Made by a program: the position numbers and the translations under genes. The notes under the pieces were generated by a model, which did not search any database, was not told the origin of the DNA, and saw nothing but the letters and a program-made list of their open reading frames with translations. From positions 1 to 14,776 of the forward strand of contig JANOHV010000105.1 in assembly GCA_031406795.1 (NCBI GenBank): 14,776 bases of DNA. The letters run 5' to 3'. Shown here in pieces: positions 1-14,642 of the stretch; within the stretch, counting starts at the first letter, position 1, and every line of letters begins with the position of its first letter. The DNA comes from DATDCY01 sp031406795 [NCBI: Candidatus Rokuibacteriota bacterium] (GTDB lineage Bacteria; JAUVQV01).

Positions 1-1
1 A

Positions 2-370
2 GTTGCCCGCTATCTGGCGCCGCCGGGGGTGACTGTCTCGTCGGCTGGATCGTCCCCGGCCTTTGTGCGGCCGCAGGCGATCCAGGTGCTCAAAGAAATA
101 GGCATCGACATCTCAGGGCATCGTTCGAAGTCGATCGAGGAGATCGATGCCGCCTCGGTGGACGCCGTCGTCACCCTGTGCGCCGAGGAGGTCTGCCCCG
201 TCTTCCTCGGCAATGCGGTAAGACTGCTTTGGGGGTTGTCCGATCCGGCGAAGGCGCCGGGGGACGAGGATGCGCGTTTGAACGCCTTTCGAGGGACGCG
301 TGACGAGCTCTTCCGTCGCATGAAGCTGCTCTTCGATGGCTGGGCGCCCGAAGAGAAAGAGAGAGCCTGA
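2..370 (+). CDS. arsC: Arsenate reductase ArsC, thioredoxin-coupled (low-MW phosphatase fold), 5'-truncated by window
   Basis: The reading frame is open from base 2, so the N-terminus, with the CxxxxxR phosphate-binding loop and first catalytic Cys, lies outside the window. The visible 122 residues match the rest of the low-molecular-weight phosphatase-like ArsC family: SAGS near the start, IDISGHRSKSI, VVTLCAEEVCP and WGLSDPA, then a helical tail with RDEL. The two cysteines at bases 179 and 194, five residues apart, are the expected pair that relays the disulfide after arsenate is reduced to arsenite, to be re-reduced by thioredoxin in the cytoplasm. A GTG at 29 is an internal codon and not a start. 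Two CxxC proteins follow directly, which fits a thioredoxin-dependent enzyme, and acr3 downstream would export the product. The family call is confident; the substrate rests on the family and the acr3 context. Confidence 0.9.
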   Translation, partial: VARYLAPPGVTVSSAGSSPAFVRPQAIQVLKEIGIDISGHRSKSIEEIDAASVDAVVTLCAEEVCPVFLGNAVRLLWGLSDPAKAPGDEDARLNAFRGTRDELFRRMKLLFDGWAPEEKERA

Positions 371-388
371 GCCGAAAGGGAGGATGAC

Positions 389-622
389 GTGAAGATCACG
401 GTCTACGGTCCGGGGTGCAAGAAGTGCCACGAGGCGGAGGATCTGGTGAAGAAGGTGGTCGCCGAGAGCGGCTCCGACGCGGTCGTCGAGAAGGTCAGCG
501 ACCTGCAGGCGATGATGAAGATGGGCATCATCAGCACGCCGGGCGTCGCCGTGGATGGCGTGCTCAAGGTCGCCGGGCGCGTCCCGAAGCCGGAAGAGAT
601 CAAGGGCTGGCTCGGGAAGTAG
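389..622 (+). CDS. Small thioredoxin/glutaredoxin-like CxxC protein (TM0996/MTH895 type)
   Basis: A 77-residue protein starting at GTG 389, with an AGGGAGG-like ribosome site just upstream and 18 bases after the arsC stop. It opens with a beta strand (MKITVYGPG) leading straight into C10-KK-C13, followed by a helix, a second strand, then ISTPGVAVDG with the cis-Pro expected in a thioredoxin fold, and VLKVAGRVPKPEEI. Length and layout fit the small archaeal/bacterial glutaredoxin-like family often filed as 'thioredoxin family protein'. It has no signal peptide, so it should be cytoplasmic. Placed directly after arsC, it is the obvious candidate reductant for that enzyme, or for the cytoplasmic side of the CcdA-like membrane protein encoded two genes on. 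Both roles are inferences from position. A similar small redox protein occurs in arsEFG-type aromatic-arsenical operons, which is an alternative context. Confidence 0.85.
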   Translation: MKITVYGPGCKKCHEAEDLVKKVVAESGSDAVVEKVSDLQAMMKMGIISTPGVAVDGVLKVAGRVPKPEEIKGWLGK

Positions 623-638
623 GCGGTAAGGTGCTGTC

Positions 639-1175
639 ATGAAGAATGGAGCGAAGATCGCGATCGTCGCCCTCCTCGCGGTGGCGGTGGCTGCCACGTT
701 TGCCCTGCGGGGAGGCAAGCGGGCCGAGTATGTAGCGCCGCCTGAACCACCCGCAGCGGTAGCACCAGCGGCCCAAGTAGCCTCGGACTCTGTAAGACAG
801 ACGGCTGCTCCAGCGGTCCCGGGCGCGGCAAAGCCGGCGCCCACACCGGCGGCGGGACTGGAAGCCGCGGCGAGGCCCGCAGCCTATCCCGCGTCCGCAA
901 AGCCCCGTCTCCTCGAACTCGGTTCGATGCGCTGCCAGGCCTGCCTGGAGATGGCGAAGGTGCTCGATGCCCTGCGCGCCAGCCAGGGAGAAAGACTACA
1001 GGTCGATTTTATTGATGTCTTCGAGCAACCCGAGGCCGCCGACCGCTACAAGGTCTCTCTGATCCCGACACAGATCCTTTTCGACGCCGCCGGGAAGGAG
1101 ATCTTCCGGCACACCGGGTACTTCGCCCACAACGACATCCTCGCCAAGTTTCGCGATCTGGGTGTGAGAATCTAG
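639..1175 (+). CDS. Membrane-anchored thioredoxin-domain protein
   Basis: 178 residues from ATG 639, with AAGGTG about six bases upstream. Residues 1-23 are a short positive start followed by an Ala/Val/Leu-rich membrane segment with no obvious lipobox, so it is probably an uncleaved anchor or Sec signal. Residues 30-85 are a low-complexity Ala/Pro/Val spacer, typical of a tether. The thioredoxin domain occupies about 88-178: LLELGSMRC-QA-C with the redox pair at C99 and C102, the strand VDFIDVF, then VSLIPTQILFDAAGKEI, which carries the cis-Pro, and FRHTGYF. The fold is clear. The active site should face the periplasm. The stop is 8 bases before the CcdA-like gene, so this protein is the natural periplasmic electron acceptor of that membrane protein. 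Whether it serves arsenic chemistry, cytochrome maturation or general disulfide reduction cannot be told from sequence. Confidence 0.85.
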   Translation: MKNGAKIAIVALLAVAVAATFALRGGKRAEYVAPPEPPAAVAPAAQVASDSVRQTAAPAVPGAAKPAPTPAAGLEAAARPAAYPASAKPRLLELGSMRCQACLEMAKVLDALRASQGERLQVDFIDVFEQPEAADRYKVSLIPTQILFDAAGKEIFRHTGYFAHNDILAKFRDLGVRI

Positions 1176-1183
1176 GGCTGCTG

Positions 1184-1882
1184 ATGGAAACCCTATTCGC
1201 AGCACTCAATAGAGCCGTCGAGGGCGCGCCGTTCATCGCGCTCAGCGCCGCCTTTGCCTGGGGTCTCATTAGCGTGCTGCTCTCCCCTTGCCACCTCGCG
1301 AGCATCCCGCTCATCGTCGGCATCATCGGCGAGCAGAAAGGAATGACAGTCGGTCGCGCCTTCCGCACCGCGCTGCTGTTCTCCCTCGGGGTGCTGGCCT
1401 CGATTGCGCTGATCGGCGCGATCACGGCGGCGCTCGGGCAGATGCTCGGCAATGTGGGCGGCTGGGTCAACTATCTCGTGGCGGCGGTTTTCTTCATGAT
1501 GGGGTTGCACCTGCTCGATGTGATTCCGCTGCCGATGGGCGGCCCCGCCGGGATGCCGACGGCCCGCCGCGGCTATCTCGCCGCACTCATTATCGGATTC
1601 GTCTACGGAGTCGCTCTCGGCCCCTGCACCTTCGCCTACATGGCACCGGTGCTCGCCGTGGCATTTAAGGCTGGAGCGAGTGCGCCATTTTTCGCAGCTG
1701 GGCTTTTCACGGCGTTCGGACTCGGACACTGTACGGTGATCACCGCGGCCGGAACCTCGGTCCGGCGGGTGCAGGAGTACCTGCGGTGGAGCGAAGACTC
1801 ACGGGCGATGCTGATTGGGCGACGCGTCTGTGGCGTGCTCGTGCTCGCCGGCGGGCTCTATTTCCTGTACACGGCCCGGTGA
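1184..1882 (+). CDS. CcdA/DsbD-family membrane thiol-redox protein, possibly ArsG-type permease
   Basis: 232 residues with about six strongly hydrophobic segments. Two repeat halves carry the diagnostic cysteines: SPCHLASIPLIVG (C36) and GPCTFAYMAPVLAV (C148), the pair that shuttles electrons across the inner membrane in CcdA/DsbD proteins. Further cysteines lie at C183, in a GHC motif, and C216. Start ATG 1184 lies 8 bases after the thioredoxin-domain gene, preceded only by a weak AGGG. In the CcdA family electrons pass from cytoplasmic thioredoxin to periplasmic partners; both kinds of partner are encoded immediately upstream. From memory, proteins with this SPCHL...GPCTF...GHC pattern in arsenic operons are also annotated as ArsG-family efflux permeases for aromatic arsenicals. 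I cannot decide between redox relay and permease from sequence alone. Confidence 0.85.
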   Translation: METLFAALNRAVEGAPFIALSAAFAWGLISVLLSPCHLASIPLIVGIIGEQKGMTVGRAFRTALLFSLGVLASIALIGAITAALGQMLGNVGGWVNYLVAAVFFMMGLHLLDVIPLPMGGPAGMPTARRGYLAALIIGFVYGVALGPCTFAYMAPVLAVAFKAGASAPFFAAGLFTAFGLGHCTVITAAGTSVRRVQEYLRWSEDSRAMLIGRRVCGVLVLAGGLYFLYTAR

Positions 1883-1914
1883 TAATGGAACAAACTGCTA
1901 TGAGGACGCGCTGG

Positions 1915-2011
1915 GCGGAGGGGTGGCGCGAAGGGGAGGTCTCCAGCGGCGGAACGAAGTGAGGCCGATGGAGGTCCGCAGCGACAGGACCCCGCAGCCC
2001 GCACGGGAACG
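1915..2011 (+). repeat. Dispersed 97-bp repeat, copy A (intergenic, upstream of acr3)
   Basis: Matches 7635-7731 inside the uvrA linker without gaps, 88 of 97 bases identical by hand alignment. It fills most of the 161-base gap between the CcdA-like gene and acr3. It contains two short hairpins: GGTCC (1973-1977) pairing with GGACC (1987-1991), and CCCG (1991-1994) pairing with CGGG (2004-2007). They share base 1991, so they may be alternatives or the first may be one pair shorter. The stem bases are unchanged in copy B. Function unknown. Confidence 0.85.
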
Positions 2012-2025
2012 AAAGCGTTCATTCA

Positions 2026-2031
2026 AGGAGG
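2026..2031 (+). promoter_or_regulatory. Ribosome binding site of acr3, unusually distant
   Basis: A perfect AGGAGG. An ATG one base after it opens only a four-codon frame whose TGA overlaps the acr3 start codon (ATGA). The acr3 ATG at 2044 is 12 bases away, longer than usual. No other in-frame start lies between, so 2044 is retained. Confidence 0.6.
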
Positions 2032-2043
2032 CATGATCTATCC

Positions 2044-3099
2044 ATGACCCCCCACGTCTCGAAGAAACTCTCGTTCCTCGACCGTTACCTGACGCTCTGG
2101 ATCTTCGTCGCCATGGCGGCCGGTATCTGCGCCGGCTGGCTGATCCCCGGAACGAAGGCTTTCGTCAATTATTTCACCGTCGGGACGACCAACGTTCCCA
2201 TTGCGATCGGCCTGATCCTGATGATGTATCCCCCGTTCGCCAAGGTGAAGTACGAGGAGCTGGGGGACGTCTTTCGCAACAAGAAGATCCTCGCGCTCTC
2301 ACTGGTGCAGAACTGGGTCATCGGCCCGGTGCTGATGTTCGTCATCGCCGTGGTCTTCTTGCACGGTTACCCGGAGTACATGGCGGGACTGATCATGATC
2401 GGGCTGGCGCGCTGCATTGCGATGGTCATCGTCTGGAACGAGTTGGCCAAGGGCGACAGCGAGTACGCCGCCGGATTGGTCGCCTTCAACAGCATCTTCC
2501 AGGTGCTGTTCTACAGCGTGTTCGCCTGGTTCTTCCTGACTGTCCTGCCGCCCCTATTCGGGCTGCAGGCCACGGTGGTCGATATCACCATCGGTCAGAT
2601 CGCAGAGAGCGTTTTCATTTATCTCGGCATCCCCTTCATCGCCGGGGCGCTGACCCGCTTCGTGGGGATCAGGCTGATGGGCCGCGACCGCTATCAGTCC
2701 GTGGTGGTGCCCCGGATCAGCCCCCTGACGCTGATCGCGCTGCTGTTCACCATCGTCGTCATGTTCAGCCTCAAGGGCGATCTCATCGTTTCGATACCGA
2801 TGGACGTGGTGCGCATCGCCATCCCGCTGCTGGTCTACTTCGTGGTGATGTTCCTGGTATCCTTCTGGATGGGCCGGAAAATTGGCGCTGACTATTCAAA
2901 GACCACCACGCTGGCCTTCACCGCCGCGAGTAACAACTTCGAACTGGCAATCGCCGTGGCGGTGGCGGTCTTCGGCATCAACTCCGGGGCCGCATTCGCC
3001 GCAGTCATCGGACCGCTCGTCGAGGTGCCGGTGATGATCGGGTTGGTCAACGTGGCCTTTTGGTTCCAGCGGCGGTGGTTCGTGCCGGCGCGCGGTTGA
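2044..3099 (+). CDS. acr3: Arsenite efflux permease Acr3 (ArsB-2 / ACR3 family)
   Basis: 351 residues, the normal length of bacterial Acr3, with about ten hydrophobic segments. Family hallmarks are present: [19 protein letters not shown] at the N-terminus, [43 protein letters not shown] carrying the essential transmembrane-4 cysteine (here C124), and [16 protein letters not shown] with the conserved glutamate (here E300), ending in [18 protein letters not shown]. It exports As(III), using the proton gradient, across the inner membrane. It follows the arsC-thioredoxin-CcdA cluster on the same strand, but a 161-base gap holding a dispersed repeat separates them, so it may have its own signals or depend on readthrough. 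Start at ATG 2044 is the only in-frame choice after an AGGAGG site. Confidence 0.96.
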
Positions 3100-3157: not shown

Positions 3158-3751
3158 GTGGAAGACATCTTCGTTCTCCCTGACGCAGTTGTGGCCGGTC
3201 CCGGACAGGTCTCCGTCAAGTTTCTGGAGCTGGGAGTGACTTCCTTCCGGATGGCGTGCACGTTTGTCCACGAACTCCCCTATGGATACAACTCCGACCG
3301 CGAGGACCTGATGGTTCTCTTCCGGGAGAAGAGGGGGAGCTGTACAACAAAGCATGCGGTGATCGCCACATTGGCTGAGGAATTGGGTCTGTCCGTGAGG
3401 AAGAACGTCGGAATCTACAAAATGACGGAGACCCTGGTAACCGGCACCGACAAGATTCTGGAACGACACCGCCTGCCCTATCTGCCGATGATTCACTGCT
3501 TCCTTGCTTCGGGGCCACATCGGGTTGACCTGACAGAAGGGAATCGCAACGGGAAGAACGGGCCGGTCAACACCTTCCTATTCACGAAGGAAGTCGCGCC
3601 GACGTTCAGCGAGAAGGAGGAGTACCTGCTCTATCGTCGCGTGCTGACTGATCAAATCCTTCTTCAGGAGGAGTTCCGCGGCGTCGATCTCAAGACCGTC
3701 CTGCTCGCGAGGGGTGAGGGCCTTTCACTGCTCCGAGACCACATCTCCTGA
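3158..3751 (+). CDS. Uncharacterised protein with transglutaminase-like Cys-His-Asp pattern
   Basis: 197 residues, soluble, no signal peptide. I do not recognise a named family, but the layout resembles transglutaminase-like (papain-fold) proteins. Residues 57-69 give EKRGSCTTKHAVI, a Cys (C62) at the start of a helix, followed by LAEELGLSVR, like the 'LLRALGIPAR' helix and strand of that superfamily. H113 sits in a strand (LPMIHCFLAS) and D124 in the next (HRVDLTEG), 51 and 11 residues on. The spacing fits a Cys-His-Asp triad. The C-terminal third is charged and probably helical. It begins 58 bases after acr3 with a strong ribosome site and looks cotranscribed. No link between this fold and arsenic is known to me. 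It could be a protease, amidase or a non-catalytic relative. Real gene: confident. Function: speculative. Confidence 0.75.
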   Translation: MEDIFVLPDAVVAGPGQVSVKFLELGVTSFRMACTFVHELPYGYNSDREDLMVLFREKRGSCTTKHAVIATLAEELGLSVRKNVGIYKMTETLVTGTDKILERHRLPYLPMIHCFLASGPHRVDLTEGNRNGKNGPVNTFLFTKEVAPTFSEKEEYLLYRRVLTDQILLQEEFRGVDLKTVLLARGEGLSLLRDHIS

Positions 3752-4724: not shown

Positions 4725-7700
4725 ATGCGCAGACCAGGAAAGGCCATTCTCGTCGAGGGGGCGCGGCAGAACACCCTCAAGAACGTCACGGTGCGTTTGC
4801 CGATCGGGGAGTTCACCGTCGTCACCGGGGTGAGCGGGTCGGGCAAGTCCTCATTCGCATTCGACACCGTCTATGCCGAAGGGCAGCGGCGGTATGTCGA
4901 GACATTCTCCCCCTACGCCCGCCAGTTCCTCGAGCGCATGGACCGCCCGCGGGTCGACCGCGTCGACGGCATCCCCCCGGCGATCGCGATCGACCAGACC
5001 AACCCGGTGCGTACCTCCCGCTCGACGGTCGGGACGATGACCGAACTCGCTGATCACCTCAAGCTGCTCTATGCGCGCGCCGCCCGGCTCTTCTGCGGGG
5101 GATGCGGGCGCGAGGTGCACCGGGACTCGCCGGAGTCGATCGCGGACGCCGTCCTGGCGGCGCGGGCGCCGGGCACGCTGCGGGGTTCCGCCGCTCCACA
5201 GCCCGCTCCGTCCGCACCGGCGAGCGGCGCGGGGGCCGCGTCGCTCGCCGCCCGTTCGCTGACCCTCGTGACTTTTCCCGTGCCGATCCCCGCCAACTTC
5301 ACCCGCGAGGAGATCGAAGGGCACCTGGCGCGCCAGGGCTACACGCGGGTGCGGCCGGTGGGGGAGGGCGCGCTCGAAGTCGTCCAGGACCGGGTGCCGC
5401 TGACCCCGGAGAATCGCGGTCGCCTCGTCGATGCGCTCGAGGCCGCGCTGCGCGTCGGCGGCGGGCGGGTGGCGCTCGTCCCGGTGGACGGCGACGGCCG
5501 CGAGGGCGCGCCGCGGCGTTTCTCGGCGGATTTGCATTGCCCGGATTGCGACCGGCACTACGCGGACCCGGCGCCGCACGTCTTCTCCTTCAACTCGCCG
5601 GTCGGCGCCTGTCCGGTCTGCCGGGGCTTCGGCCGGACGATCGGCATCGACGCACGACTGGTGGTGCCCGACGAGTCGCTGACGCTGCGCGGCGGCGCGA
5701 TCCGGCCCTGGCAGAGCGGCATCTCGCGCGAGTGCCAGGCCGACCTCGTGCGCCTCGGCAAGAAGCGCGGCGTCCCGCTCGACGTTCCGTGGCGCGACCT
5801 CACGGCCGCGCAGCGCGGCTGGGTGCTGGAGGGCGAGGGCGAGTGGGCGAAGGATGTCTGGTACGGGGTGCGCCGCTACTTCGCGTGGCTCGAGTCCAAG
5901 GCCTACAAGATGCACATCCGCGTTCTGCTCTCGAAGTACCGCTCGTACAGCACCTGCGCGAGCTGCGGCGGCGCGCGCTTGAAGCCGGAGGCCCTGAACT
6001 GGCGCCTCGGCGACGGGAAGCTCAACTTGCACGAGCTGACGTTGCTGCCGATCTCGGGCTGCCTGGCGTTCTTCGGCGCGCTCTCGCTGCCCAGGCCCCT
6101 CGACGAGGCTGCGGACCTGCTGCTGCGCGAGATCCGCACCCGACTCGGGTATCTGGTCGACGTCGGCCTCGGCTACCTGACGCTCGATCGGCAGTCGCGC
6201 ACGCTCTCGGGCGGGGAGGTCCAGCGCATCAACCTGACGACGGCGCTCGGCACTTCGCTCGTGAATACCCTCTTCGTCCTCGACGAGCCGAGCGTGGGGC
6301 TCCACGCCCGCGACATCCGGCGCGTGATCGGGGTCCTGCAGCGCCTGCGCGACGCGGGGAACACGCTGCTGGTGGTGGAGCACGACGCCGGGATCATGCG
6401 CGCGGCGGACCGCATCCTCGATTTCGGCCCGGGACCCGGCGAGCGTGGCGGCGAAGTGGTCTTCTTCGGGCCGCCCGCGGATCTGCGCAAGGCGCGCCGC
6501 TCGCTGACGGCGGACTACCTGCTGGGTAGACGCCGGGTCGGCGCCGGCGGGGTCCCGCGCCCGCCGGATGCCGCGACCTCCTGGCTGGAGGTGATCGGCG
6601 CCGCCGAGCACAATCTCAAGGGGATCGACGTCCGGGTGCCGCTCAACCGCCTCGTCTGCGTGACCGGGGTTAGCGGCTCGGGCAAATCGACACTCGTCGA
6701 GGACATCCTGCACCGCGGGCTCAGGGCGGCACGCGGGCTTCCCGTCGATGCCCCGGGCCGGCATGCGGGGCTGCGCGGCCACGAGCATCTCGGCGAAGTG
6801 ATGCTGGTCGATCAGTCGGCGATCGGCAAGACGACGCGCTCGAACCCCGCCAGCTACGTTGGCGCCCTCGACGGCGTGCGGGCGCTCTTCGCCGCCGAGC
6901 CGCTGTCGAAGGAGCGCGGCTACACGGCCGGGACCTTCAGCTTCAATGCGGGAACCGGTCGCTGCCCGACCTGCAGCGGCACCGGCTTCGAGCACGTCGA
7001 GATGCAGTTCCTCTCCGACGTCTACCTGCGCTGTCCCGATTGCGACGGGCGCCGCTACCGGCCCGAGGTCCTCGAGGTGAAGCTGCGCGGGACGACTTCG
7101 GTCGCGGACGTCCTCGACCTGAGCGTCACCGAGGCCATGGCGTTCTTTGCCGACAGGGCCGACATCACGGCGGCGCTCGAGCCGTTGCTGGGCGTCGGGC
7201 TCGGCTATCTGAAGCTCGGTCAGCCGGTCCCGACGCTCAGCGGCGGGGAGGCGCAGCGCCTCAAGCTCGCCGGCCACCTCGCCTGGGCGCGCAGGAAGAA
7301 AGGCGGCGCGGGACGGCTCCTGCTCTTCGACGAGCCGACGACAGGACTGCATTTCGAGGACATCGCGGTGCTGCTCGGCGCCTTCAGACGGCTGATCGCC
7401 GAAGGGCACTCGCTCGTGGTCATCGAGCATAATCTCGACGTGATCCGCGCCGCCGACTGGGTGATCGACCTCGGCCCCGAGGGAGGCGACGAGGGCGGGC
7501 ACCTGGTCTGCGCCGGCACCCCGGCGGACGTGACGGCCTGCGAGGAGAGCCGCACGGGAGCCGCGTTACGAGAAACCGGCACTTTCCCAACGGATCCTCC
7601 GCACTCGGACGGCGAAACGGATTTCATGCGCACAGCGGAGGGGTGGCGCGGAGGGGAGGTCTCCATCGGCGGACCGGAGGGAGCACGATGGAGGTCCGCA

Positions 7701-10412
7701 GCGTCAGGACCCCGCAGCCTGCACGGGAACGTCGCGCAACGTCAGGACCCCGCAGCCCGAACGGGAACGATGGGTCCCCTCGTCCCGCCCCGGAACGAGA
7801 TCGTGATCCGCCACGCGAGAGAGCACAACCTCAAGGGCATCGACGTCACCATTCCCCGCGACCGCTTCACCGTCATCACCGGCGTCAGCGGCAGCGGCAA
7901 GAGCACCGTCGCGTTCGACATCCTCTTCAACGAAGGGCAGCGGCGCTACCTCGAATCCCTCAACGCCTACGCGCGGCAGTTCGTGCAGCCCGCCGCGCGC
8001 GCCGAGGTCGACGCCGTCTCGGGGGTGCCGCCGACCGTCGCCATCGAGCAGCGCACCAGCCGCGGCGGACGCAAGAGCACCGTCGCCACGCAGACCGAGA
8101 TCGCCCACTTCCTGCGCCTGCTCTATGCGCGCCTCGGCACGCAGTACTGCCCGGACTGTGACATGCCGATCACCCCGCAGAGTCTCGACGCGATCGCCGC
8201 CGCCGTGCTGAAACGCCACCGCGGACGCCGTGTGGCGCTGCTCGCGCCTCTGGTGACCGCGCGCAAGGGCTATTACACCGACCTGGCGGCCTGGGCGGCC
8301 AAGCAGGGGTTCGCGCATCTGCGCGTCGACGGCGCGCCGACGCCGGTTGTCCCCTGGCCGCGCCTGGACCGATTCCGGGAGCACACGATCGAGTTGCCGG
8401 TCGCCGAGATTGCGGTTTCGCCGCGAGGGGAGGGAGATCTGCGAGCCGGTCTTTCATCCGCGCTCGGGTACGGCAAGGGGGTGGTTCACGTCCTTTCCGC
8501 CGGCACGGAGACACCGGAAATATTCTCGTCGATCCGGGCCTGCCCCAGTTGCGGCCGGGGTTTCCCCGAACCGGACCCCCGGCTGTTTTCGCACAGCACC
8601 AAGCACGGCTGGTGCCCCGCCTGCTACGGGACGGGACTCGCGATCGAGGGCTTCGACGCCGACCAGTCCGGCGAGGAGATCTGGTGGAACGAGTGGTACG
8701 AGGGCTCCGAGCGCGCGTGCACGGTCTGTGCCGGCCGGAGGCTGCGCCCGGAGGCGCTGGCGGTGCGCTTCGCCGGGCGTTCCATCGCGGCGGTCCTCGG
8801 TCTCCCGGTCGAAGCGGTCGAAGCGTTCGTCGGCTCGCTGAAGCTCGATGCGCGTGAGGCCGCGATCGCCCGCGACCTGCTGGCAGAGGTCGGCTCCCGC
8901 CTCGCCTTCCTGCGCCGCGTCGGACTCGGGTACCTCCAGCTCGACCGCGCCGCCCCGACCCTCAGCGGCGGCGAGGCCCAGCGCATTCGACTCGCCGCTC
9001 AGCTCGGATCGAGCCTGCGTGGCGTCTGCTACATCCTCGACGAGCCGACGATCGGCCTGCATGCGCGGGACAACCGCCTGCTCCTCTCGACCCTCAAGGA
9101 ACTCGGGAAGGCCGGGAACACCGTGGTCGTGGTCGAGCACGACGAGGAGACGATCCGCGCCGCCGAGCACCTCATCGACCTGGGTCCGGGAGCCGGCGTC
9201 AACGGCGGCCGCGTCGTCGCCGCCGGGTCGCTGCGGGACCTGCTGCGCTCGAAGGAGTCGGTGACTGCGAGATTTCTGCGCCAACCGCTGGTTCACCCGC
9301 TGCTACCGCCGCGGACCGGCGAGCCGCCGGGGGCGATCGAGGTCCGCGGCGCGCGCCTGCACAACCTGCGCGATCTCACGGTGGCGGTCCCGCTCGGGCG
9401 GCTGGTCTGCGTCACCGGCGTCAGCGGCAGCGGCAAGAGCACGCTGGTCGGCGATGTGCTCCACGGGAACCTGCGGCGTCTGGTCATCGAGCGCCGCCGC
9501 CCGGCGGTCCGGCGCGACGCCCGTCCCCCCGCGAAACCGGCGCGAACCCGCCGTGAGAGCGCAGACGCGCTGCGCGGGTGCGATGCGATCACCGGTTGGG
9601 AGTCGCTCCGGCGGGTGCTCGAAGTCGACCAGACGCCGATCGGCAAGACGCCGCGCTCCTGCCCGGCAACCTACGTCGGCTTCTGGGACGCCGTTCGCCG
9701 CCTCTTCGCGGCCACCCCGGAGGCCAAGATGCGAGGTTGGGGGCCGGGCCGTTTCTCCTTCAACGTCGCGGGCGGGCGCTGCGAGGCCTGCGAGGGGCAG
9801 GGAGTGCGGCGGATCGAGATGAGTTTCCTCCCCGACGTGACCGTGCCCTGCGACGCCTGCCGCGGCGCGCGCTTCGCCCCCGAGACGCTGGCGGCGCGCT
9901 ACCGCGGGCGCACGGTGGCCGAGGTGCTGGCGATGAGCGTCGACGAGGCGGTGGGTTTCTTCGAAGTCCACCCGCCGGTCTACAACGCGCTGCGCCTGCT
10001 CCAGGACGTCGGTCTCGGCTACCTGACCCTCGGCCAGCGCTCGCCATCGCTGAGCGGAGGCGAGGCCCAGCGCATCAAGCTCGTGACCGAACTGGCGCAG
10101 GCCTCCGGCGCCGTTCTCTACCTCCTCGACGAGCCGACGGTCGGGCTGCACATGGCCGACGTGGAAAAGCTCATTCGCGTGCTGCACCGTCTCGTGGACG
10201 CGGGCAACACCGTCGTCGTCATCGAACACAATCTCGACGTCATCGCGGAAGCGGACTGGATCATCGACCTCGGCCCGGAAGGGGGGGCGGCGGGCGGGCG
10301 GGTCGTCGCGTCAGGAACGCCGGCCGCCGTGGCCCGCAAGACGAGACGCTCGCACACCGCGGCGTACCTCGCCCCGTTCCTCAAGGCCAGGAAAGGCGGC
10401 AGCAAGAAGTGA
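4725..10412 (+). CDS. uvrA: Double-length UvrA: two excinuclease A modules fused in one chain
   Basis: 1895 residues, about twice a normal UvrA (~940). Module 1 (1-950) and module 2 (1022-1895) each hold two ABC ATPase halves. Walker A lysines: K41, K654, K1059, K1571, all in [13 protein letters not shown] signatures start at 494, 838, 1413 and 1776. Walker B Asp-Glu pairs: 520/521, 869/870, 1439/1440, 1802/1803. Zinc-type CxxC pairs occur at 272/275 with 296/299, 747/750 with 770/773, 1273/1276 with 1297/1300, and 1686/1689 with 1709/1712. UvrA binds damaged DNA as a dimer and loads UvrB in nucleotide excision repair; this chain could act as a built-in dimer. The insertion-domain interval is 112 residues in module 1 (C299-C411) but 32 in module 2 (C1300-C1332). 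ATG 4725 has GGGAG nearby; an upstream GTG at 4653 lies in promoter DNA. I recall double-length UvrA paralogues being annotated in other Proteobacteria, so the fusion itself may be known. Confidence 0.93.
7635..7769 (+). repeat. Dispersed repeat, copy B, within the uvrA inter-module linker
   Basis: Bases 7635-7731 match the intergenic copy at 1915-2011 at 88 of 97 positions without gaps. The last 30 bases (7702-7731) recur at 7740-7769 with 28 of 30 identical, a part-duplication with period 38. All of it is read in frame as uvrA residues 971-1015, a Gly/Arg/Ala-rich stretch with no UvrA counterpart. An in-frame ATG lies just past it at 7770 and another just before at 7627. Confidence 0.85.
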
Positions 10413-10657: not shown

Positions 10658-11914
10658 CTATTCTCTTGTCTGGCCGTCGCCGAAAACGACGAACTTGCTG
10701 CAGGTCAATTCCTCGAGTCCCATCGGACCCCGGGCGTGGAGTTTCTGCGTGGAGATCCCCATTTCGGCGCCGAGGCCGTACTGGAATCCGTCGGAGAACC
10801 GCGTCGAGGCGTTGACGATGACCGACGAGGAGTCGACTTCGGCGACGAAGCGCAGCGCCCGGGCGTAGTCCCTGGTGACGATGGCGTCGGTGTGCATCGA
10901 GCCGTAACGCGCGATGTGCTCCATCGCTTCCTCCAGCGAGCCGACGACCTTCACGGCGAGGATCAGCTCGAGGAACTCCTTGCCGAAATCCTCGGGTATT
11001 GCGGCTTTCACCCACGGGGCAAGTTTCTTCGTCCGCGCGCAGCCGCGGATCTCGACGCCGGCCTTGCGGTACGCCGGGAGCATCTTCTTGAAGAACGCCG
11101 GGGCGATCTTCTCGTGCACGAGCAGCGTCTCCATCGCGTTGCAGACCCCCGGGCGCTGCACCTTGGCGTTGAAGCAGACCTTGACCGCCATCGGGATGTC
11201 GGCCGCCTCGTCGACAAAGGTGTGGCAGACCCCCTCGTAGTGGAAGATCACCGGGATCGTCGAGCCCTCGACGACGGCGCGGATCAGCTCCTTGCCGCCG
11301 CGCGGGATGACCAGGTCGATCACGGAGTCGAGCTTGAGCAGCTGGGCCACCGCTTTTCTGTCGGTGGTCGGCAGCATCGTCACGGCGGCCGCCGGCAGAC
11401 CCGCCTCCTCCAGCGAGTGGGCGGCGAGGCGGGCGAGCGCCATGCTCGAGTGGAAGGCCTCCGAGCCGCCGCGCAGAATTACGGCGTTGCCGGACTTGAT
11501 GCACAGCCCCGCCGCGTCGCACGTCACGTTCGGGCGCGCCTCGTAGATGATTGCGATGACGCCGAGCGGCACGCGCATCCGGCCGACGCGCAGTCCGTTC
11601 GGACGCACGGTCATCCGGGTGATCTCGCCGACGGGGTCGGGCAGCGCGGCGATCTCGCGCAGGCCCTGGGCGATGGCCGCGAGTCGTTTCGCGTCGAGCA
11701 GCAGCCGATCCTGCATGGCCGGCGGGAGTCCGCGCCGCCTGGCCTCGGCGAGGTCCCGGGCGTTCGCTTCGAGCACCGGGCCGCCTTCGTTTTCCAGCCG
11801 GCGCGCGTAGGCGAGCAGCGCCGCGTTCTTCTCGCCGGTCGACGCCCCGGCAATGCGCCGGGCGGCCGCCTTTGCGGTTGATGCCAGTTCGAGCACGCTC
11901 TGCGCCTTCGCCAT
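10658..11914 (-). CDS. proA: Glutamate-5-semialdehyde dehydrogenase (gamma-glutamyl phosphate reductase)
   Basis: 418 residues, the usual ProA length. It performs the NADPH-dependent reduction of gamma-glutamyl phosphate, the second step of proline synthesis, in the cytoplasm. Diagnostic stretches: VPLGVIAIIYEARPNVT, IKSGNAVILRGGSEAFHSS, FHYEGVCHTFVD, and the catalytic cysteine C258 in VQRPGVCNAMETLLVH, then NASTRFSDGFQYGLGAEMGIST and the closing RGPMGLEELT. ATG 11914 is chosen because GGGAGG lies five bases upstream; an earlier in-frame start at 11968 would run through the palindromic element P2. It follows proB in the same direction but is separated by 164 bases containing P2, and ends at palindrome P1 facing uvrA. 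All key residues seem intact. Confidence 0.97.
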   Translation of the reverse strand: MAKAQSVLELASTAKAAARRIAGASTGEKNAALLAYARRLENEGGPVLEANARDLAEARRRGLPPAMQDRLLLDAKRLAAIAQGLREIAALPDPVGEITRMTVRPNGLRVGRMRVPLGVIAIIYEARPNVTCDAAGLCIKSGNAVILRGGSEAFHSSMALARLAAHSLEEAGLPAAAVTMLPTTDRKAVAQLLKLDSVIDLVIPRGGKELIRAVVEGSTIPVIFHYEGVCHTFVDEAADIPMAVKVCFNAKVQRPGVCNAMETLLVHEKIAPAFFKKMLPAYRKAGVEIRGCARTKKLAPWVKAAIPEDFGKEFLELILAVKVVGSLEEAMEHIARYGSMHTDAIVTRDYARALRFVAEVDSSSVIVNASTRFSDGFQYGLGAEMGISTQKLHARGPMGLEELTCSKFVVFGDGQTRE

Positions 11915-11926
11915 GTCCGCCTCCCT

Positions 11927-12053
11927 GGCAGGGCGCTGAAAAAGGCCCATCTGTTGCGTTGCGCTCACCCCGGCTCACTGCGGCGTGCACGAGCACGCCT
12001 CATTCGCCGGGTTTTCGCCCGCCTTGCAGCTGGACCTTTCTGAGCACCCTGCC
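11927..12053. repeat. Palindromic intergenic element, copy P2 (between proB and proA)
   Basis: A 127-bp imperfect dyad exactly centred on 11990. Outer 19-base arms (11927-11945 and 12035-12053) pair at 16 positions. The centre is a perfect 7-bp stem, GGCGTGC-ACGA-GCACGCC (11982-11999). Read on the - strand, the boxes GCAAGGC, the central hairpin and GCAACGCA match P1 in order and spacing. It occupies nearly the whole proB-proA gap and stops just short of the proA ribosome site. Confidence 0.8.
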
Positions 12054-12078
12054 CATCGTATGGGTTTCCAGCAACCTG

Positions 12079-13245
12079 TTATTGATGTTCGTCGGCACCG
12101 ATCGTCTCCGTCACGACCAGCTCGTTTCGGTGTACCACCTCGTCCTCGCGGTGACAACCGAGGCAGCGCACGCGCTCGGTCGTCAGACCCTTGATGCCGC
12201 CGATTTCGGCCGCGCTGTAGCGCGTCAGGCCGCGCGCGATCTCCCGTCCGTCGGCGCCGACGATCCGCACCGGGTCGCCGGCCGCGAACTCGCCGCGCGT
12301 GCCGGTCACGCCGGCGGGCAACAGGCTCTTGCCGCCGCGCAGCAGCGCCTTGGCCGCACCCGCATCGACGAGGATGTCGCCGGCGGCGGCGAGGGTGTGC
12401 CGGATCCAGTGCTTCTTGCCCGCGAGTCGTCGCCCCGCCGGGAGGAAGACGGTGCCGAGCGCCTCGCCGGCGAGCAGACGCCCGATGTTCCCCGCGTCCT
12501 GCCCCGAAGCGATCGCCATCGGAATGCCGTAGTCGTTCACGCGGCGCGCGGCGATGAGCTTGGTGCGCATGCCGCCGGTGCCGACGCTCGAGGAGGTGCC
12601 GCCGGCGCTCGCCAGCAACGCGGCGGTCACGCCGCGCACCGTCGGGATGAGCTCGGAGTCCGGGTCGTTGCGCGGGTCCCCGGTGTAGAGGCCCTCGACG
12701 TCCGAGAGGAGCACCAGCAGGTCCGCGCCGACGAGCACGGCAACGGTCGCCGAGAGCGTGTCGTTGTCGCCCACGCGCAGTTCATCGACCGCGACCGTGT
12801 CGTTCTCGTTGATCACCGGGACCACCCGGTACTCCAGCAGGGTAGCCAGCGTATTCTGAGCGTTGATGAAGCGCCGCCGGTCGGCGAGGTCGCCGCCGGT
12901 GAGCAGTACCTGGGCGACCTGCAGCCCGTGGCGGCGGAAAGCCTGTTCCCAGGCGGCCATCAGGTAACCCTGGCCGACGGCGGCCGCGGCCTGCTTCTCG
13001 GGTATGGAGCGGGGGCGCCGCGGCAGCTTCAGCCGCGCCGACCCGGCCGCGACGGCCCCGGAGGTGACGACGACCGGCTGGCCGCCTCGCGCCGCGAAGC
13101 CCGCGATCCCGTCGGCGAGCGCGTCGATCTTGCCGAGGCTGAGGGTTCGCTCCTCGGTGACCAGGCTCGAACCGACCTTGAAGACGACCCGGCCGACGGG
13201 CCCGACTTCGCGGACACGGGAACGGGCCACGGTCGATCGCTTCAC
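12079..13245 (-). CDS. proB: Glutamate 5-kinase with C-terminal PUA domain
   Basis: 388 residues. It phosphorylates glutamate with ATP, the first and normally proline-inhibited step of proline synthesis. The amino-acid-kinase domain (about 18-275) shows VVFKVGSSLV, VVVTSGAVAAG, QVLLTGGDL with INAQNTLATLL, VPVINENDTVAVDEL, GDNDTLSATVAVLVGADLLVLLSDVEGLYTGDP and GTGGMRTKLIAA. Residues from about 300 form a PUA domain (DAGAAKALLRGGKSLLPAGV, GDPVRIVGADGREIARGL), as in the long E. coli-type enzyme. Start GTG 13245 overlaps the obg stop by four bases (GTGA), so translation is probably coupled. A slightly later in-frame start at a Val codon cannot be excluded, since the first 15 residues are poorly conserved in the family. 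The partner enzyme ProA is encoded downstream after a palindromic repeat. Confidence 0.96.
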   Translation of the reverse strand: MKRSTVARSRVREVGPVGRVVFKVGSSLVTEERTLSLGKIDALADGIAGFAARGGQPVVVTSGAVAAGSARLKLPRRPRSIPEKQAAAAVGQGYLMAAWEQAFRRHGLQVAQVLLTGGDLADRRRFINAQNTLATLLEYRVVPVINENDTVAVDELRVGDNDTLSATVAVLVGADLLVLLSDVEGLYTGDPRNDPDSELIPTVRGVTAALLASAGGTSSSVGTGGMRTKLIAARRVNDYGIPMAIASGQDAGNIGRLLAGEALGTVFLPAGRRLAGKKHWIRHTLAAAGDILVDAGAAKALLRGGKSLLPAGVTGTRGEFAAGDPVRIVGADGREIARGLTRYSAAEIGGIKGLTTERVRCLGCHREDEVVHRNELVVTETIGADEHQ

Positions 13246-14303
13246 GCCTTCTTCGGCCCGCGTCGGACCGGACGCGCGGCCGCCTCCTTTTCGCGCTCGG
13301 CGCGCTCGATCGCGTCGAGTGTCTGCTTCGTGGTGTAGACCAGTTCCTTGAGCCCCTGGCGCGTCGCCGCCGAAATGACGTGGCAGGGGATGCGCCGGCG
13401 TTTCGCGAAGGCCAGCAGTTTCTTGAGGTTTTGCGCCGCCTCGGGGATGTCCGCCTTGTTCGCCACCAGCAGCTGCGGCTTCTTTTCGAGTCCTCCCCCG
13501 AAGCCGGCGAGTTCGGCGTTGATCGCGCGATACTCCTCGACCGGGTCGCGGCCGGTGTCCGGCGAGAGGTCCACGAGGTGCAGCAGCAGCTTCGTGCGCG
13601 CCAGGTGGCGGAGAAAGCGGGTACCGAGCCCGGCGCCGTGCGAAGCCCCCGGGATCAGGCCGGGAACGTCGGCGACGACGAAGCTCTCCCCCTCCTCGAG
13701 GCGCACGACGCCCAGGTGCGGCGTCAGGGTTGTGAAGGGATAGTCGGCGATCTTCGGTTTGGCCGAGGAGATCGTCGAGATCAGCGTGCTCTTGCCCGCA
13801 TTGGGGAAGCCGACGATGCCGACATCCGCGAGCAGTTTGAGCTCGAAGACGAGTTCGAACTCCTCCCCTTCCTCCCCCGGCTGCGTCTTGCGCGGCGCCT
13901 GGTTGGTCGCCGAGACGAAGTGCGCGTTGCCCAGGCCGCCGCGGCCGCCCTTCGCGACGATCACCCGCTGGCCGGGCTCGACGAGGTCGGCGATCACCTC
14001 CCCGGTGGCCTTGATGCGCACCAGGGTGCCTTGCGGGACCGGCAGGACAATGTCCTCCTCAGCCGCGCCGGAGGACCTGCTGCCGCGGCCGTGCCCGCCG
14101 TGCTTGGCGAAGGCGTGAGGCCGGAAGCGATAATCCACCAGCGTCCTGATGTGGGGATTGGCTTCGACGATGATGTCCGCTCCCTTGCCGCCGTTGCCGC
14201 CGTCGGGTCCCCCCAGCGGGATGTACTTCTCCCGGCGGAAGCTGCAGCAGCCTTTGCCGCCATGGCCGGCCCGGACGTGTATGGTGACCTCATCGACAAA
14301 CAT
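13242..14303 (-). CDS. obg: Obg-family ribosome-assembly GTPase (ObgE/CgtA)
   Basis: 353 residues. It is an essential GTPase that works on the large ribosomal subunit and in stress and replication control. The glycine-rich Obg fold fills residues 1-158 (FVDEVTIHVRAGHGGKGCCSFRREKYIPLGGPDGGNGGKGAD, VAKGGRGGLGNAHF). The G domain follows: G1 GFPNAGKST (165-173, K171), switch I DYPFTTL, G3 DVPGLI, G4 NKAD and G5 near VISA. The C-terminus is a short basic tail rich in Ala and Arg rather than a full TGS-like domain, which is usual for many proteobacterial versions. ATG 14303 has AAGGAG four bases upstream. It sits after rpmA, the standard order, but behind a strong terminator-like hairpin, and overlaps proB by four bases. 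Confidence 0.97.
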   Translation of the reverse strand: MFVDEVTIHVRAGHGGKGCCSFRREKYIPLGGPDGGNGGKGADIIVEANPHIRTLVDYRFRPHAFAKHGGHGRGSRSSGAAEEDIVLPVPQGTLVRIKATGEVIADLVEPGQRVIVAKGGRGGLGNAHFVSATNQAPRKTQPGEEGEEFELVFELKLLADVGIVGFPNAGKSTLISTISSAKPKIADYPFTTLTPHLGVVRLEEGESFVVADVPGLIPGASHGAGLGTRFLRHLARTKLLLHLVDLSPDTGRDPVEEYRAINAELAGFGGGLEKKPQLLVANKADIPEAAQNLKKLLAFAKRRRIPCHVISAATRQGLKELVYTTKQTLDAIERAEREKEAAARPVRRGPKKA

Positions 14304-14313
14304 CGTTCTCCTT

Positions 14314-14350
14314 AAAAACGAACGAGGCGTGCCCTGGTGGACACGCCTCG
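14314..14350 (-). terminator. Terminator/attenuator hairpin between rpmA and obg
   Basis: On the - strand a perfect 9-bp stem, CGAGGCGTG (14350-14342) and CACGCCTCG (14331-14323), with a 10-base loop, is followed by TTCGTTTTT. The T-tract abuts the obg ribosome site AAGGAG. It should cut or reduce transcription passing from the ribosomal protein genes into obg-proB-proA. Confidence 0.75.
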
Positions 14351-14387
14351 GTGCGTTCTGTCGGCGGTTGAGCCGCCGGGGCCGGTA

Positions 14388-14642
14388 CTAGACCGCCTCG
14401 ATACCGATGAGCTTGCGGCCGCCCGCGATGACGCGGAAGACCACCTTGCCCTGAATCTTGGCGAAAAGCGTGCAGTCACGCCCCATGCCGACATTCGGCC
14501 CGGGGTGGTAGACGGTGCCGTGCTGGCGCACCAGAATGCTCCCCGCGGTGACCGTCTGTCCGCCGTAGCGCTTGATGCCGAGCCGCTGGCCTTCGCTGTC
14601 GCGGCCATTGCGGGAGGCGCCTTGTCCTTTTTTATGAGCCAT
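14388..14642 (-). CDS. rpmA: Large-subunit ribosomal protein bL27
   Basis: 84 residues, full length. The start [16 protein letters not shown] is the highly conserved L27 opening without the N-terminal leader found in Firmicutes, and [41 protein letters not shown] is the family core. The flexible N-terminal tail reaches the peptidyl-transferase centre of the 50S subunit. It follows rplU by 12 bases with a GGAGAGG-type ribosome site and precedes obg, the usual L21-L27-Obg order. Identification is unambiguous. Confidence 0.98.

Follow-up and report, generated by a model that had tools for sequence, protein, structure and literature searches.

Probable in-frame insertion of a hairpin-forming intergenic repeat into the linker of a double UvrA

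How might a sequence that stands between two genes come to be read as protein inside a third? The window analysed here, the whole stretch of 14,776 nucleotides with a GC content of 68%, raises this question at a uvrA gene that encodes two UvrA modules in one chain. Part of the linker between the modules recurs in an intergenic region 5.7 kb away, next to acr3. The features on which the argument turns are these.

1915 to 2011, plus strand: repeat copy A, in the intergenic region that separates the CcdA-like gene from acr3, an imperfect nested hairpin (88/97 identical to copy B; RNA fold; frame scan).
4725 to 10412, plus strand: double UvrA (80 relatives, with 53-63% identity over the best segment; Pfam and NCBIfam).
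7473 to 7841, plus strand: inter-module linker, from GPEGG to AREHNLKGI, 123 aa with the anchors included (longest of 81; pLDDT).
7635 to 7731, plus strand: repeat copy B, read in frame within the linker of uvrA (BLAST, shuffles, flat codon-position GC over 7635-7769).
7740 to 7769, plus strand: extra copy of the 30-bp repeat tail, in frame (28/30 identical to 7702-7731; family D4).

BLAST and a direct count agree that copies A and B are identical at 88 of 97 positions without gaps, with a BLAST score of 135 bits (E about 5e-35 over 97 nt). The repeat family pairs 1908-2011 with 7628-7731, at 88% over 104 nt (family D3). When the linker was shuffled 500 times with dinucleotides preserved, the top score against the rest of the window was 35.6 bits, and the match between the copies is far above chance. 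The final 30 bases of copy B (7702-7731) are found again just downstream as the extra tail. Together, copy B and this tail (7635-7769) make up 135 nt, i.e. 45 codons, which correspond to residues 971-1015 counted from ATG 4725. The earlier note had proposed that these residues come from repeat DNA; the 88/97 match and the 28/30 tail, both in frame, bear this out, and its counts for the match and its description of the tail duplication hold as well. It had also taken the copy beside acr3 to be non-coding. Copy A occupies part of a gap of 161 bp (1883-2043), between the stop of the CcdA-like gene (1882) and the ATG of acr3 (2044), and the longest stop-free frame wholly covering it has 92 aa and is antisense. 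Copy B lies inside a single open frame ending at 10412. We call the repeat dispersed in the sense that there are two full copies within the 14.8-kb window, one of them intergenic. Read in the uvrA register, copy A has TGA where copy B has GGA: a stop-free variant might have been inserted, copy B might have lost a stop, or copy A might have acquired TGA later. Of the nine bases that differ between copies A and B, eight stand at first or second codon positions of the uvrA register, hence there is no sign of selection on the peptide.

The gene that carries copy B is a UvrA. Its product, 1895 aa from ATG 4725 (the ORF list begins the frame at TTG 4653), scores 1922.5 bits with TIGR00630, for a cut-off of 729.8, and carries the UvrA-specific Pfam domains PF17760 and PF17755. 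As relatives we kept the best 80 of 590 confirmed loci (at least 591 pattern matches), with one genome per species. In 80 of these 80 a single frame, running from stop to stop over 1765-2330 aa, encodes the double UvrA, with the best segment spanning both modules; some of the loci (e.g. L042, L050, L072) end at contig ends. Judging by record titles, the relatives are mostly Beta- and Gammaproteobacteria, and include members of the Verrucomicrobia (L002), Nitrospinota (L009) and Spirochaetia (L011). In the tree the window protein appears to branch among these last three, inside the doubles, its next neighbours being L010 and L020. We also drew 200 genomes evenly from the phylum to which Aquisalimonas lutea (L012) belongs. 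Five of them, L012's own included, match a module-2 query with E<=1e-100, and these five matches lie in open frames of 1904-2023 aa. To judge by these sequences, the double UvrA appears to be old. Since the relatives are all single-frame doubles and the repeat was not found in the DNA of their loci, the joining of two genes at the repeat is not needed to account for the locus. NCBIfam already holds a model of excinuclease A, NF001885 (PRK00635, 1809 aa), which like the window protein is one chain of double length. Yet the window protein scores 1093.5 bits with this model, for a curated cut-off of 3054, and falls outside it; in the tree it groups with the doubles from records titled Verrucomicrobia, Nitrospinota and Spirochaetia. 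Separate UvrA proteins, in frames of 951-994 aa, are encoded besides the double in all five genomes of L001, L002, L009, L011 and L013 (G001-G005).

The linker of the window is unusually long. With anchors included it has 123 aa, against 67-117 (median 83.5) in the relatives, none of which has one as long (0/80), and removing the 45 repeat codons leaves 78 aa, an ordinary length. The earlier note had named, as the outcome that would speak against its reading, conservation of the linker across distant doubles together with no genomic copies beyond these two; we looked for such conservation at the protein level in the 80 relatives and the window and did not see it, and no peptide resembling the repeat-coded segment occurs in the linkers of the 80. 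Composition sets the segment apart from the modules: GC at codon positions 1/2/3 is 76/73/71 in 7635-7769; module 1 has 72/51/91, module 2 has 73/52/89, and the part just after the repeat has 67/38/92. Among 1762 overlapping 45-codon segments elsewhere in uvrA, none has a difference between GC3 and GC2 as low as the repeat, while 18 have a GC3 as low. The linker before the repeat (7473-7634), with 70/63/78, is also off the gene pattern, which lowers slightly our confidence in an insertion and raises slightly that in the repeat being a piece of uvrA copied outwards. Loose composition is in fact common in double-UvrA linkers, and that of the window, level with L004, has the seventh lowest GC3-GC2 among the 81. 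AlphaFold2, run with 30 of the 81 sequences aligned, gives pLDDT below 50 over residues 958-1017, with the repeat residues wholly inside; the input was a fragment cut from the longer protein, in which a second stretch near the end is also below 50, so that low confidence alone is no proof of disorder.

A nested imperfect hairpin is possible in both copies, and the outer arms are partly complementary in the fold; terminal inverted repeats and a target-site duplication, the marks of a MITE, were considered. The region of copy A (1905-2030) folds as RNA at -53.7 kcal/mol, better than shuffles (z -2.34), and the region of copy B folds no better than shuffles (z 0.57). Passages of a 2013 study (PMC3733652) describe REPs inside coding regions, many of them in replication and repair genes, and place REPs in a Thioalkalivibrio uvrA and in both uvrA genes of Opitutus terrae. 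According to the same passages, most intragenic REP inserts are 20-30 aa and clusters are 43-82 aa, and flexible linkers are named as possible neutral sites for REPs (PMC3733652). A REP of the GTAG or CGTC class is marked by one of these tetranucleotides at an end of its palindrome, which measures 20-40 bp, by a high copy number with most copies between genes, and by an associated RAYT transposase gene. The window repeat resembles the intragenic REPs described there in being palindromic, dispersed and in frame in a DNA-repair gene, uvrA. It differs from GTAG/CGTC REPs in being longer (97 bp), in its imperfect nested hairpin and in the lack of GTAG or CGTC in copy A; the passages on uvrA in PMC3733652 do not state whether the genes are double, as the window gene is. 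By eye, GTAG, CTAC, CGTC and GACG are all absent from copy A (1915-2011) and CGTC is internal only in copy B. Hence no such tetranucleotide stands at a palindrome end, and we do not assign the window repeat to the GTAG/CGTC class. Rfam at gathering scores gave zero matches in the window, and no transposase family was found among the subset of window ORFs scanned with Pfam and NCBIfam.

The base composition of Rickettsia is unlike that of the window. The Rickettsia palindromic elements (RPE), described in passages of a review as about 150 bp long and in frame within ORFs (PMC10969869), nevertheless offer a parallel in mode, palindromic and in frame, the comparison being one of mode and not of sequence. 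The window repeat has the properties of an RPE-like, protein-coding palindromic insertion: both copies can form the nested hairpin; the insert is in frame, with 80 homologues (<=63% identity) that do without it and a linker that is of ordinary length once it is removed; and the repeat is also found outside genes, as the one intergenic copy A. In-frame insertion of repeats in uvrA is already known from PMC3733652, as far as its passages tell, and the window repeat itself has no convincing match in the data searched. Beyond PMC3733652 we found no account of repeats in a double UvrA linker, other papers being judged by their titles and the start of their abstracts.

We consider it very likely, from these sequence comparisons, that a non-coding hairpin repeat entered the linker of an existing double UvrA without breaking the frame. 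An element of about 97 bp, able to form a hairpin, would have inserted into the flexible linker of a pre-existing double UvrA, and its 30-bp tail would then have been duplicated, or would have arrived with the repeat. At about 135 bp in all, divisible by three and stop-free in the uvrA register, the inserted DNA would have given the protein about 45 probably disordered residues, and the UvrA with the longer linker presumably stayed functional. Such a small hairpin element might spread by copying, probably helped in trans by a transposase or through a conversion-like event. Insertions in the linker that were out of frame or carried a stop would have been lost. We infer that the direction was from repeat to gene and that the insertion was nearly neutral. 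The linker seems tolerant of insertions because little there is constrained. The empty site to which we compare it is that of relatives with at most 63% identity, rather than of a sister strain. If this is right, the locus would be a clean example of non-coding repeat DNA that has become protein, with an intergenic counterpart still close by.

Is this linker the only one of its kind to contain a repeat? We scanned 83 linkers for perfect inverted repeats (L109 and L112, two of four extra linkers, did not fit the search expression and were left out). The longest perfect arms are of 25 bp in L025 and 22 bp in L012, and the next longest are of 13 bp. L025 also stands out by its linker peptide, and L012 when each linker is compared with its own locus. 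In L012 (Aquisalimonas lutea, 8876-9014) the double UvrA linker contains an in-frame pair of palindromic units and a third unit; a 90-bp stretch of it has 118 matches in its own genome, with both strands and itself counted, and one of the repeat's ends is GTAG, by which the passages of PMC3733652 characterise GTAG REPs. Stop-free frames of up to 713 aa cover some of the REP-like copies in this genome. Nine frames were scanned among 16 non-uvrA loci inspected there and none of the nine has a Pfam domain at E<=1e-5, hence we treated them as spurious. In L025 (betaproteobacterial MAG FW602_bin.15, 8757-8847) the double UvrA linker contains an in-frame palindrome. Counting itself, the 88-bp element is matched 6 times in its own genome, at 3 places, and its 17-base core occurs 19 times with at most one mismatch. 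Three of these 19 are exact and two lie within uvrA; the reversed control gave 0. Its GGGGTCAG fits GGGGWSAS, given in PMC3733652, in the passages concerned, as a motif of the terminal repeats of some tyrosine transposase genes. We scanned 5 of the 10 non-uvrA sites in this genome: three have a domain, with the element outside it in all three, and two have none. A perfect hairpin with 13-bp arms in L051 (3242-3279) was rejected as a dispersed repeat, its arm being found elsewhere only with a mismatch, 6 times, where the reversed control gave 4. Other matches between linkers and their own loci are mostly short, many of them within the uvrA gene itself. At least three of the 81 linkers thus contain dispersed repeats, the whole-genome searches having covered the linker elements of L012, L025 and L051. 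The repeats of the window, L012 and L025 look unrelated in sequence. Three unrelated repeats in one linker would make it a site of recurrent tolerated insertion, and such inserts might serve as a natural length series for asking how much distance between its modules a double UvrA can bear.

The locus might have arisen in other ways. Besides a frame-preserving insertion, the earlier note had proposed that two neighbouring uvrA-like genes were joined via an intergenic repeat, so that the second module may still have its own start. The repeat does lie between the modules, with an ATG directly after it at 7770, as the note had it and in frame (its other candidate, 7627, is off by one, since the in-frame ATG starts at 7626). 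But neither ATG has a clear Shine-Dalgarno by eye, the kept relatives are single-frame doubles without exception and have no trace of the repeat in their locus DNA (best E 0.03), the five long frames from L012's phylum and the apparent place of the window inside the doubles beside L002, L009 and L011 speak for an existing double gene, and NCBIfam had a double-length model already. We hold such a joining to be very unlikely, and linker length and composition favour the note's other alternative, insertion. Generally, the length of the linker or an ATG within the frame would seem poor evidence that a double UvrA arose by recent gene fusion. It is also highly improbable that a coding segment of uvrA gave rise to the repeat by being copied out to the intergenic region. 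Two copies cannot prove direction, and the linker upstream of the repeat departs from the coding pattern as well; yet the segment lacks the codon-position GC pattern of the gene, nothing similar occurs in the linkers of the 80 relatives, and a nested hairpin can form. An assembly artefact, i.e. a contig chimera or a repeat misplaced at the linker, comes to mind as the window is probably a metagenome record and assemblies can misjoin at repeats. This explanation is barely credible given that the two sides form a single double UvrA, collinear and without a change of frame, that the two halves agree in how similar they are to the 80 relatives (Spearman correlation of identities 0.77, a value that on its own a join of two strains might also give), and that a misjoin at a repeat would require a repeat to be in that linker already.

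Insertion is compatible with a function of the inserted sequence. The mRNA hairpin or the peptide might be selected, for example through slower translation between the modules or an altered UvrA activity. The finding of three unrelated palindromic repeats in the double-UvrA linker among 81 may be taken this way, as may the presence of REPs in uvrA, uvrB, recB and DNA polymerase genes, with a role in REP-tagged repair genes speculated upon in passages of PMC3733652. Still, the same pattern would be expected under neutrality in a long disordered spacer, the region of copy B folds no better than shuffles, and by eye the peptides that the three repeats encode do not look related; we regard selection on hairpin or peptide as quite unlikely. 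One might go further and speculate that the linker is a preferred landing site for unrelated mobile palindromes in distant bacteria, which are kept because the hairpin or the longer spacer alters the making or the joint working of the UvrA modules, but we would put this forward as an unlikely conjecture.

We searched for further copies of the repeat. In the DNA around the 80 double-UvrA loci it was not found, the top match having E 0.03. In 77 genomes of one phylum a single genome gave a match at E<=0.01 (G018, 50 nt, 77%, E 0.001), which we judged to be chance, and none did at E<=0.001 in 80 genomes of a second. At E<=1e-4 the repeat was found in 0 of 240 and 0 of 398 further genomes, both weak negatives, since at most three and at most two first-look candidates per genome, respectively, were scored among the matches listed. 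The samples of 77, 80, 240 and 398 genomes represent four phyla, and with no positive genome among them absence is not demonstrated. Two patterns made from the repeat had 0 matches in viral_contigs, and plasmid records had zero matches to the repeat. Phage records gave three weak matches in Gordonia phages (E 0.1), inside a thymidylate synthase gene, and these too were judged to be chance.

The genes on either side of uvrA can be named in part. The run at 1-3099 encodes, by Pfam and NCBIfam, an LMWPc-family (arsC-like) protein, two thioredoxin-like proteins, a protein with a DsbD_TM domain, which is the product of the CcdA-like gene, and acr3 (TIGR00832); to judge by these matches it looks like an arsenic resistance cluster. 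The 197-aa ORF that adjoins acr3 (3158-3748) has zero Pfam or NCBIfam matches at E<=0.001. On the other side, at 10658-14642, proA, proB and obg lie on the minus strand, convergent with uvrA, together with an ORF that we take to be L27-like.
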